Position numbers and translations under genes: made by a program | DNA from: Rhodothermia bacterium | GTDB lineage: Bacteria; Bacteroidota; Rhodothermia; Balneolales; Balneolaceae | NCBI GenBank assembly: GCA_030427885.1 | Contig: JAUICM010000004.1 | Span: forward strand, 1-64,000 | DNA length: 64,000 nucleotides | Reading direction: 5' to 3' | The notes under the pieces: generated by a model | The model's database searches: none | What the model was told of the DNA's origin: nothing | Seen by the model: the letters and a program-made list of their open reading frames with translations, nothing else | In this document: piece after piece, positions 1 to 27,342 of the stretch | Position numbering within the stretch: position 1 is the first letter of the stretch | Layout of the letters: the number at the start of each line of letters is the position of its first letter

Positions 1-2
1 CA

Positions 3-65
3 TTGGAATTTAAATGTGATTACTGTAATGAAATTGTCAAGTATGAAAAAGAATCATTCGGCTAA
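3..65 (+). CDS. 3' end of an integron cassette ORF (partial)
   Basis: An open frame enters from the left edge and ends at the TAA at 63-65. The visible residues include a Cys-x-x-Cys pair (CDYC), as in small zinc ribbons. The stop codon lies inside the 5' box of the first attC site, a typical arrangement for the last codon of an integron cassette gene. The start lies outside the window, so the product cannot be named. With only 20 codons visible, coding status is inferred mainly from position. Confidence 0.4.
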   Translation: MEFKCDYCNEIVKYEKESFG

Positions 66-183
66 CAAGCGTTTCAAGTCGGACGCAGGTAGGGTTCGCC
101 GGAAAGCTTGTGGGCAATAAAATTATTCAGTTACTTCAATTAAAAACGAACACCTGCGCCGCTTAAACGCCGGGTCGTTATGC
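60..183 (+). repeat. attC recombination site 1 (integron)
   Basis: This site is about 124 bp. The 5' box is GGCTAAC at 60-66 and the 3' box is GTTATGC at 177-183. The inner arms AGCGTTTcAAG and CTTaAACGC are complementary apart from one extrahelical base, and GCAGGT/ACCTGC extends the fold further in. This is the imperfect-hairpin architecture of attC sites recognised by integron integrases. The central part is nearly identical to attC3 and to the remnant at 27243-27342, as expected for the lineage-specific attC family of a sedentary chromosomal integron. Confidence 0.85.
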
Positions 184-201
184 CGCTCTAACCCAAGCTC
201 A

Positions 202-720
202 ATGAAGACAGCACCAATCGAATTCAAGCCACTATCTGAAACAGATCTCCCCCTGCTTGCTGACTGGCTTTCACGAGCACATCTTCAAAAATGGTGGAGA
301 GAAGATGAAATAACTATTGAACGAATTCGAGAGAAATATTTACCTCGTATTTTTGGTGAGGATGATGCCAGACCTTTTTTAGTGTACTTAGATTATAGTC
401 CAGTTGGATATATCCAATATTACCACGCTTGGATAAACCAAGACTGGTGGCCAGACAAGCCGGAAAAGGGAGTATTGGGAATTGATCAATTCATTGGTGA
501 TAAAAATAATTTGGACAAAGGAATCGGGAGTAGATTTATATCAGAATTTGTGCAACGGCTATTCGATGATCCCGAGGTTACGGAAATTCGCGTGGACCCA
601 AGACCTGATAATGTGCGAGCTATTCGATGCTACGAAAAAGTGGGGTTTGAAAAAGTAAACCAAATTAATACTCCCGATGGACTCGCTATTATGATGGTCC
701 TTAACAGAAAAACCTTCTAA
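202..720 (+). CDS. AAC(6')-Ib-like aminoglycoside N-acetyltransferase (GNAT)
   Basis: This 172-residue GNAT protein would transfer acetyl from acetyl-CoA to the 6'-amino group of aminoglycosides. It follows the AAC(6')-Ib pattern along its length: YLP at 46-48, the tryptophan pair at 82-83, GIDQ at 93-96, the CoA pyrophosphate loop DKGIGS at 105-110, LFDDPEVTEI, RAIRCYEKVGFE and TPDG at 157-160. The residues matching Trp102 and Asp179, which are altered in the fluoroquinolone-acetylating -cr variant, have the ordinary form here. The gene fills a cassette between attC1 and attC2 and has no evident promoter, so it probably depends on upstream array transcription. The family call is strong; the true substrate in this organism is inferred. 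Confidence 0.9.
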   Translation: MKTAPIEFKPLSETDLPLLADWLSRAHLQKWWREDEITIERIREKYLPRIFGEDDARPFLVYLDYSPVGYIQYYHAWINQDWWPDKPEKGVLGIDQFIGDKNNLDKGIGSRFISEFVQRLFDDPEVTEIRVDPRPDNVRAIRCYEKVGFEKVNQINTPDGLAIMMVLNRKTF

Positions 721-745
721 GTTAAAAGCCTCATAGAAGTTTGCG

Positions 746-867
746 GCATAACAAGCGCATCAACTGGGACGCGGAAATGCCGTTGGTTTCCAGAGATGCT
801 TGTTTTAAAATTTTCACCGTTAATTAAATCATAATCCCCGCGCCCGTTATGCGCCAGGCCGTTAGGC
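746..867 (+). repeat. attC recombination site 2 (integron)
   Basis: The 5' box is GCATAAC (746-752) and the 3' box is GTTAGGC (861-867), an exact GTTRRRY match. The inner arms GCGCATcAAC and GTTATGCGC pair with one extrahelical C. The centre differs completely from attC1 and attC3, so this cassette comes from a different attC lineage. Length is about 122 bp. Confidence 0.8.
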
Positions 868-883
868 TACCTTTTCATAAAGC

Positions 884-915
884 TTGACAATAAGTACGGA
901 ATAGCGTACGTTTTG
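884..915 (+). promoter_or_regulatory. Promoter and operator of the toxin-antitoxin cassette
   Basis: A TTGACA element at 884-889 is followed by TACGTTTTG at 907-915, one base away from the Bacteroidota -7 form TAnnTTTG. Two GTAC cores at 894-897 and 906-909 lie 12 bp apart, and GTACG/CGTAC form an inverted repeat overlapping the -7 region. In E. coli, YefM-YoeB binds paired TGTACA hexamers over its own promoter, so autorepression is likely here. Promoter and operator roles are inferred from sequence. Confidence 0.6.
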
Positions 916-940
916 AAAGCGTTCACTAATTCGTATTGCC

Positions 941-1183
941 ATGAAAACACTTACAGCTACTCAAGCTCGCAAAGACATTTATCGATTGCTGGATGAAGCT
1001 TCTGATACCCATAAACCGATTCAGATCACCGGGAAACGCTCCAATGCCGTATTGGTCAGTGAAGAAGATTGGAGGGCTATTCAGGAAACGCTTTACCTTT
1101 CTTCCATTCCGGGCATGCAAGAGTCTATTGTGGAAGGAATAAATACCCCACTTGAAGAAACCGAGGAAGAACTTGACTGGTGA
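941..1183 (+). CDS. yefM: YefM/Phd-family antitoxin
   Basis: This 80-residue protein has the Phd/YefM DNA-binding fold at the N-terminus (TATQARKDIYRLLDEA) and a beta segment with ITGKRSNAVLVSEEDW. Its acidic C-terminal tail would wrap the toxin. It neutralises the adjacent YoeB and, as a complex, represses the promoter at 884-915. The stop codon overlaps the GTG start of the toxin gene in a GTGA junction, indicating translational coupling. The pair forms one complete cassette between attC2 and attC3. Toxin-antitoxin cassettes are known to stabilise large integron arrays. Confidence 0.93.
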   Translation: MKTLTATQARKDIYRLLDEASDTHKPIQITGKRSNAVLVSEEDWRAIQETLYLSSIPGMQESIVEGINTPLEETEEELDW

Positions 1184-1446
1184 GCACCTATAAACTCGTT
1201 TACACCAAACAAGCTAAGAAGGATGCTATAAAAGCCGCTTCTTCAGGTTTAAAGTCCAAAATCGAAGACTTGTTGGAGATCATTGAGAAAAATCCCTTTG
1301 AAGAATACCCTCCCTATGAAAAATTGGTTGGTAATTTAGAAGGGGCATACTCTCGACGAATCAATATCCAGCATCGCTTAGTATATCAGGTTTACGAAAA
1401 AGAGAAAGTCGTGAAAGTAATCAGAATGTGGACTCACTACGATTAG
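1180..1446 (+). CDS. yoeB: YoeB/Txe-family ribosome-dependent mRNA interferase toxin
   Basis: This 88-residue RelE-superfamily toxin cleaves mRNA in the ribosomal A site. The family signature is clear: NPFEEYPPYEKL, SRRINIQHRLVY and the C-terminal MWTHYD. The residues matching the E. coli catalytic set Glu46, Arg65 and His83 are Glu47, Arg66 and His86. The start is GTG, overlapping the antitoxin stop by 4 bp. The gene ends 6 bp before attC3. One extra Asp follows the usual terminal Tyr. All catalytic positions are present, so the toxin is probably active. Confidence 0.94.
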   Translation: MSTYKLVYTKQAKKDAIKAASSGLKSKIEDLLEIIEKNPFEEYPPYEKLVGNLEGAYSRRINIQHRLVYQVYEKEKVVKVIRMWTHYD

Positions 1447-1452
1447 CCGGTA

Positions 1453-1598
1453 GTATAACAAGCGTTTTAAGTCGGACCCTGATCTTCATCAGTGCAGGCT
1501 CCGGTAGGGTTCGCTGGGAAGCTTGTGGGCAATAAAATAAATCAGTTACTTCAAATAAAAACGAGAACCTGCGCCGCTTAAACGCCGGGTCGTTATAG
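1453..1598 (+). repeat. attC recombination site 3 (integron), enlarged
   Basis: The 5' box is GTATAAC (1453-1459) and the 3' box is GTTATAG (1592-1598). Apart from about 22 extra nucleotides near the 5' arm, it matches attC1 almost throughout. The extra segment contains its own small inverted repeat, CTGATcttcATCAG. GCAGG/CCTGC still pairs on the inner stem. Total length is about 146 bp. Confidence 0.82.
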
Positions 1599-1616
1599 CC
1601 AGGTCCAATAAAGAAA

Positions 1617-2021
1617 ATGAATAAGTTTTCAGTAATTCTTTTTTTGATGCTTTGTTCTATTTGGAGTGAGGCACGAACACAAAGTATTGTTGGTACAACT
1701 TGGGTAAATAGTAATTTTGATGATTGTACAAGTACGATTAAGCTTTTAGGAGAAAAAATAGTCCATTTTTACTATTGTGGAGTTAATGAGACTGTAACTG
1801 GCATTTATTCTTTCTCAGCTGATACATTAAAACTTGATCTGTACGAAAATGACCAAACACCCATTTCATTTGGTGGTTCAGATGAATCGTATCTAAGATT
1901 TAAGTATACATTTGTTCGTGATGATACTACACTTACAATGTTGAAATACACAGATGTTAAATATGAGTATGAAGAAATAGTCAATGATTGGCAACGTAAC
2001 TTCAAACTAATTGATAACTAA
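1617..2021 (+). CDS. Secreted cassette protein of unknown function
   Basis: This 134-residue protein has an N-terminal signal sequence (hydrophobic residues 5-15, then a likely cleavage near SEARTQS). The mature part resembles small lipocalin-like or META-like domains in layout: GTTWVNSNFDDCTSTIKLL, then alternating beta strands with TGIYSFSADTLKL. It has two cysteines that could form a disulfide. The ATG lies 18 bp after the attC3 3' box, and a truncated attC follows the stop, so this is the last cassette gene seen. I recognise no specific family. Confidence 0.7.
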   Translation: MNKFSVILFLMLCSIWSEARTQSIVGTTWVNSNFDDCTSTIKLLGEKIVHFYYCGVNETVTGIYSFSADTLKLDLYENDQTPISFGGSDESYLRFKYTFVRDDTTLTMLKYTDVKYEYEEIVNDWQRNFKLIDN

Positions 2022-2027
2022 AATTGG

Positions 2028-2050
2028 CTATAACAAGCATTTCAAGCGGA
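2028..2050 (+). repeat. Truncated attC (5' half only), end of cassette array
   Basis: TATAACAAGCATTTCAAGCG matches the 5' arm of attC1 and attC3. The central region and the 3' arm ending in GTTATG are missing, and the sequence runs into unrelated DNA ahead of the SDR gene. This marks the distal end of the array, probably fixed by deletion. Confidence 0.6.
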
Positions 2051-2177
2051 TCTATTAATAAACCTTTCCCTTTCCGGAACGTTCGCTGAATAATCCTGCT
2101 TTTTAATGTTCCGGTAACAATCACTTCGGTTCTGTTTGTTACTATGAAACAAACTTTTAAAAAATGAGGGGCCTGCC

Positions 2178-26925: not shown

Positions 26926-27234
26926 ATGTTGATTTTAGGTTGGATCATATATGTTTATGTAGCCTTTACTGTTTTAAAAAATTTCTATGAACTAAGAATG
27001 ATGATTCATGCTTCTGTATCTATTGCACCACAATTAATGAATAGTTTGAGTTATAGATTTATTGGACTCATTCTATTACCAATTTTTGGTGTTCCTCCTA
27101 TTCATATTCTTTGGGTTTATTTAGTAGTAAAATTTGGGCTTCACTTTCTTCATTTATTCCCCTTTAATATCATAACTCCCGTATCTGCTCTTTTATATTC
27201 AATTGCGGGAGTAGTAATAATCAAAAAAGATTAA
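26926..27234 (+). CDS. Small membrane protein of unknown function
   Basis: This 102-residue protein has three hydrophobic segments (about 2-18, 47-70, 77-99) and ends in KKD. Its AT-rich codons differ from the surrounding chromosome. The stop lies 8 bp before a truncated attC site, so it may be an old cassette gene. I recognise no family. Confidence 0.5.
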   Translation: MLILGWIIYVYVAFTVLKNFYELRMMIHASVSIAPQLMNSLSYRFIGLILLPIFGVPPIHILWVYLVVKFGLHFLHLFPFNIITPVSALLYSIAGVVIIKKD

Positions 27235-27242
27235 ATATAATT

Positions 27243-27342
27243 GCAGGTAGGGTCCGCTGACAAACTTGTGAGCAATAAAAATATTCAGTTACTTCTACAA
27301 AAAAACGTAAACCAGCGCCGCTTCAACGCCGGGTCGTTATAG
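27243..27342 (+). repeat. 5'-truncated attC remnant
   Basis: From GCAGGTAGGGT to GTTATAG (27336-27342) this matches attC1 and attC3 almost base for base, including CAGTTACTTC and CGCCGGGTCGTTAT. The 5' arm (TAACAAGCGTTTCAAG) is missing. It stands 25 kb from the main array. Confidence 0.75.

Follow-up and report, generated by a model that had tools for sequence, protein, structure and literature searches.

The window, by which we mean the whole stretch of 64,000 nucleotides analysed here, corresponding to the first 64 kb of contig C8, opens with an array of integron gene cassettes, the features of which are collected in Table 1. The forward-strand ORF of 172 aa at 202-720, starting with ATG, was confirmed to be present in the window. 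It is the one ORF of a complete cassette lying between two attC sites, with the right attC having paired R and L boxes and with R' sites as the bounds, and thus the segment has the makeup of an integron gene cassette. In the right attC, GCGCAT..GGGACGCGG pairs with CCGCGCCC..ATGCGC, and this stem pairing is followed by the spacer CAGGCC and the R' site GTTAGGC, from which the extent of the cassette, 178-861, follows. It is noted that the long stem of this attC closes at the GTTAGGC ending at 867, with the inner GTTATGC ending at 852 being part of the stem. Far from the array, after a 102-aa ORF (26926-27234), the right half of a native-type attC is present without its left half at 27243-27340, and this isolated half is a stray or decayed cassette.

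Table 1. Features of the cassette array at the start of the window.
Feature	Coordinates	Strand	Basis
Tail of the preceding cassette, with the final codons of a 197-aa membrane-type ORF and the attC	1..177	+	97% identical to the end of the complete cassette C5:536849-537639; attC fold and motif
Left attC, the genome's common type	60..183	+	best home match 95% over 124 nt
Acetyltransferase gene cassette	178..861	+	recombination after G177 and G861; R' sites GTTATGC (177-183) and GTTAGGC (861-867)
AAC(6')-Ib-like GNAT acetyltransferase, 172 aa	202..720	+	family models, crystal-chain matches, alignment, predicted fold
Right attC, belonging to the acetyltransferase cassette; few of its type in this genome, many in a sister genus	746..867	+	fold, attC comparisons
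Next cassette: YefM-type antitoxin (941-1183) and YoeB-type toxin (1180-1446), attC (1453-1598)	862..1592	+	NCBIfam TIGR01552 and TIGR02116 over cutoff; attC
Last cassette: 134-aa ORF (1617-2021), no family assigned, then left attC half only (from 2026)	1593..2055	+	ORF call, family search; array end

A cassette that contig C5 has in full (C5:536849-537639), and for the 197-aa ORF of which the family search found no family, has its end repeated in the first bases of the window, and its start stands at the beginning of contig C3 (C3:1-120). The simplest reading is that this duplicated cassette probably broke the assembly and that the reversed C3 is the left neighbour of the window; if so, the acetyltransferase cassette would be the second one in its array. 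The genome has an integron integrase on C5 (C5:529082-530026; 436 bits versus the cutoff of 265) and is thus integron-bearing, with at least 14 attCs on C5 and further attCs on C10, C2 and C3. No intI over the cutoff was found on C3 or C8, and none was seen beside the acetyltransferase array, the left end of which is cut by the contig end. The sequence-only reading of this DNA, which had placed the cassette in a native integron, thus holds for the genome, by virtue of the C5 integrase, with no intI having been found beside the acetyltransferase array itself, and the two flanking attCs and the intI on C5 do make the gene a cassette-borne one in an integron-bearing chromosome. A tyrosine recombinase near the C10 array, considered as a second intI, was rejected, being XerD. 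A 17-bp motif, which was derived from the C5, C10 and C3 sites themselves, precedes the first cassette of these three arrays and occurs nowhere else in the stretches scanned; with the C3 flank otherwise unaligned, an attI at the C3 end is only suggested.

The arrangement is like that of chromosomal integrons and CALIN in having a genomic intI with attC arrays and an attC cluster with no visible adjoining intI, integrase-less attC clusters having been described (PMC8618304), and in the carriage of toxin-antitoxin and acetyltransferase cassettes. No difference in kind is seen, with the window array being cut by the contig end and its left part being our reconstruction. Our literature search on integrons in Balneolaceae found no paper. 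The C5 array also holds a cassette for a barstar-like protein (L028:15877-16218; Pfam PF01337, 54 bits) and, after an attC, a PtuA-type ATPase (L028:18413-19657; PADLOC PDLC00290, 538 bits), directly behind which another ORF begins; the two together probably form a Septu anti-phage system carried on a cassette.

ORF 202-720 encodes a GNAT acetyltransferase with the architecture of AAC(6')-Ib. The product is matched by the AacA4-type AAC(6') models of NCBIfam with E = 4e-51 and by Pfam Acetyltransf_8 with 100 bits versus a cutoff of 27, and in the PDB sequence comparison AAC(6')-Ib crystal chains align to its residues 8-172 with E = 3e-46, both E-values being far below what chance would give. 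In an AlphaFold2 model built from 25 sequences (mean pLDDT 93), the predicted GNAT fold is nearest to AAC(6')-Ib, with the top five PDB structures being all AAC(6')-Ib (TM up to 0.92, rmsd 1.7), followed by AAC(6')-Im, siderophore acyltransferases and SpeG. These matches bear out the proposal, made from the sequence beforehand, that the protein is an AAC(6')-Ib relative, and the segments then named as diagnostic, GIDQ, TPDG and the Trp pair, are all present, with W82-W83 being the counterpart of W102-W103 in AAC(6')-Ib and with W31-W32 likewise kept. By the curated cutoffs, however, the protein falls outside the AAC(6')-Ib/AacA4 family, as it stays under the cutoff of every AAC(6') model, with 173 versus 260 bits for TIGR04431, 173 versus 280 for NF012165 and 150 versus 400 for NF033074. 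Its identity to AAC(6')-Ib, IIa, IIc and 31 is 40-46%, being the highest to IIa (46%) and the lowest to Ib-cr (40%).

We then consider the pocket. Of 14 positions that we take to be those of the pocket in AAC(6')-Ib structures, the numbering of which agrees with the sequence, 10 are identical in the 172-aa protein, and D115, D152, Y164, Q91, Y93 and the Trp pair are kept; the changes are E73D, V75A and D100Q, together with S98, which falls within a one-residue deletion. The residue after GIDQ is Phe, whereas in the clinical enzymes it is Leu or Ser, which sets the amikacin or gentamicin preference. Because Phe is neither of the two, the substrate range is not readable from the sequence, and because the substrate loop has also lost S98 and D100, the substrate may differ. 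Asp is present at the D179 position and Trp at the W102 position, and thus neither of the two Ib-cr changes is carried. An AAC(6')-31 copy that was compared has Gly at both 100 and 179, implying that these two sites tolerate change.

Provided that the 202-720 gene is expressed, which, like the substrate range, we infer, its product would most likely transfer the acetyl group of acetyl-CoA to the 6'-amino group of 2-deoxystreptamine aminoglycosides or of a similar amino-sugar, and it is likely that the predicted enzyme acetylates aminoglycosides. Alternatively, the protein could be a GNAT having the AAC(6')-Ib fold but with a polyamine, a cell-wall amino-sugar or a siderophore precursor as its natural substrate. 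This would be in line with the scores under the curated AAC(6') cutoffs, the altered substrate loop with Phe after GIDQ, the siderophore acyltransferases and SpeG being the next nearest folds, and the homologue genes being single on chromosomes. We nevertheless consider it rather unlikely, because the nearest structures are all AAC(6')-Ib complexes, with E-values clearly better than those of other GNATs, because the pocket residues from D115 to the Trp pair listed above are retained, and because 24 of the 28 newly predicted aminoglycoside-modifying enzymes tested by Lund et al. (PMC10400643) raised resistance. The same study predicted thousands of families of such enzymes outside pathogens, and thus an uncharacterised AAC(6')-like gene of this kind is to be expected.

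For the phylogeny, a first genome scan with a single protein query found nothing, while an alignment query gave 379 relatives, 80 of which were kept; a scan of IMG/VR contributed one further match at 41% and another that is partial. In the trees of 56 and 54 rows, the rows of which are drawn from the 80 relatives nearest the window protein and are limited in sampling to that extent, the window protein forms a clade (96/95) with its homologues in G368 and G042, which belong to two other genera of the family of the window genome, and with those of a Bacteroidetes MAG and a Phycisphaerae MAG. By contrast, the clinical enzymes AAC(6')-Ib, IIa, IIc and 31 are nested among chromosomal proteins of Comamonadaceae and other Burkholderiales (clade 96/88), and a tree forced to group them with the window protein is worse by 218 log units (AU p 2e-49). 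Among the PLSDB plasmids, none has the gene at >60% protein identity and none has the cassette as DNA. The earlier suggestion had been that the protein is a source or a side branch of mobile aminoglycoside resistance, with a phylogeny of AAC(6')-I proteins as one of the checks. The trees made here reject the source on the present sampling, while the side branch is upheld by the separate supported clade outside the clinical group. That the clinical AAC(6')-Ib/II cassettes originated from the window protein or close to it would fit with the common fold, the level of identity and the carriage on a cassette in both, but it is extremely improbable in view of the nesting of the clinical enzymes, where some chromosomal proteins of Variovorax, Acidovorax and Hydrogenophaga even sit among the clinical ones, and of the cost of forcing.

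Taken together, the window protein is like the AAC(6')-Ib/II group (AacA4; TIGR04431, NF012165, NF033074) in length, in having the GNAT fold with most of the active-site residues, and in the GIDQ and TPDG motifs, as well as in the common carriage on integron cassettes, but differs from it in its identity of only 40-46%, its scores under the curated cutoffs and its own clade, in a substrate loop that is one residue shorter and without S98/D100, in the Phe after GIDQ, and in a cassette of another attC lineage that is not on PLSDB plasmids. The nearest chromosomal kin of the clinical AAC(6')-Ib/II in the trees are the Comamonadaceae proteins L109, L050, L100 and L117 (Variovorax, Acidovorax, Hydrogenophaga, with Polaromonas further out). 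Such AAC(6')-like proteins (Variovorax L109, Polaromonas L117, Hydrogenophaga) are environmental chromosomal relatives in the same wider family, but it is they, and not the window protein, that stand nearest to the clinical enzymes; with 351 bits, L109 passes the family cutoff, which the window protein, with 173, does not reach. It is also noted that in two relatives from gammaproteobacterial MAGs, L056 and L085, the AAC(6')-like domain continues in frame to totals of 366 and 430 aa, with the extension in L056 having a second GNAT-like stretch.

The attC of the cassette indicates where it came from. The assignment of resistance cassettes to taxa by their attCs is due to Ghaly et al. (PMC8352920) and is used here in a simple form. 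At home, the best other match to attC 746-867 is about 77-78% over 72-75 nt, while among the 92 genomes of the family nearly full-length matches at 80-89% are present in several genera, most of all in g5, a sister genus, with 89% (over 118 nt) in G278, 88% in G061 and 87% in G398. As a control, the left attC 60-183 has a match of 95% at home and of 91-96% in genus g2 and others. Moreover, for 27 of this genome's 29 attCs the best match is another attC at home; attC 746-867 and one on C10 are the exceptions. This comparison is biased toward the result by two g5 loci picked for matching attC 746-867, the search of the 92 genomes being the fairer one. Searching by pattern for the native attC returned 0 matches although such attCs exist, and this result carries no evidential weight. 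The expectation from the sequence that this attC is unlike the local type and that the cassette was imported thus agrees with the data. It could also be supposed that the cassette was not imported and that attC 746-867 is one of several normal local types, as two home attCs share parts with it (77% on C5; 86% over 44 nt at C10:254376-254419) and attC types occur across the family. This is improbable, however, because the nearly full-length matches are in other genomes only and because attC 746-867 departs from the home-best rule of 27 of the 29 local attCs.

Based on this, the import was most likely short-range, with the attC type being native to a sister genus within the family. The cassette would have been drawn from the cassette pool of that genus, as marked by its attC, and inserted into the chromosome by attC recombination via the C5 integrase or a similar one. 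The donor is not certain, as attC types are common to genera across the family. Since intI over the family cutoff is present in 50 of the 92 family genomes, a family-wide cassette pool is plausible.

As to the gene itself, a close homologue is present in only 3 of the 92 family genomes, with the nearest one in G368 (80% aa, 83% nt) and the other in G042 (59%); other GNATs in the family, with 26-38% identity, were set aside as a different group. The similarity to G368 spans the ORF, with none clear upstream of the ATG, and the dN/dS versus this homologue is 0.13, meaning that the acetyltransferase gene is under purifying selection. In G368 and G042 the gene is single among unrelated chromosomal genes, no attC was seen beside it on reading the flanks, and neither genome has an intI. 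Among the five clade members, four show no attC beside the gene, a result that for G368, G042, L041 and L042 comes mainly from inspection of the flanking sequences, the automatic scan having missed a clinical attC too. Because four of the five have no visible attC, the cassette form is probably derived, and because the closest homologue is in no visible cassette and its genome has no intI, the cassette has the look of a chromosomal gene that was captured. The direction of gene flow, from chromosomal gene to cassette, is what we infer from this, and our tentative proposal is that a chromosomal AAC(6')-type gene gained its attC in the integron of the sister genus and then spread as a cassette. 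The reverse order, with the cassette form being ancestral and the G368 and G042 genes being former cassettes that lost their attC, seems somewhat doubtful: it would explain the sporadic carriage, as expected for transferred genes, but it sits poorly with the four clade members having no attC next to the gene and with G368 and G042 both having no integron integrase.

In summary, we propose that the locus is a cassette of a free-living bacterium with an environmental AAC(6')-type enzyme, on a branch separate from the clinical Ib/II enzymes, that was inserted by attC recombination from the pool of a sister genus, a reading to which we give a probability of roughly three in four. The origin of resistance cassettes is an open question, and for the clinical AAC(6')-Ib/II enzymes the better lead is their chromosomal kin in Comamonadaceae. 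Here, within one bacterial family, the gene of a resistance-type enzyme occurs as an ordinary chromosomal gene and also in cassette form, with the attC pointing to a donor genus. If true, the path from chromosomal gene to cassette would be a local, traceable case of the birth of a resistance-type cassette.
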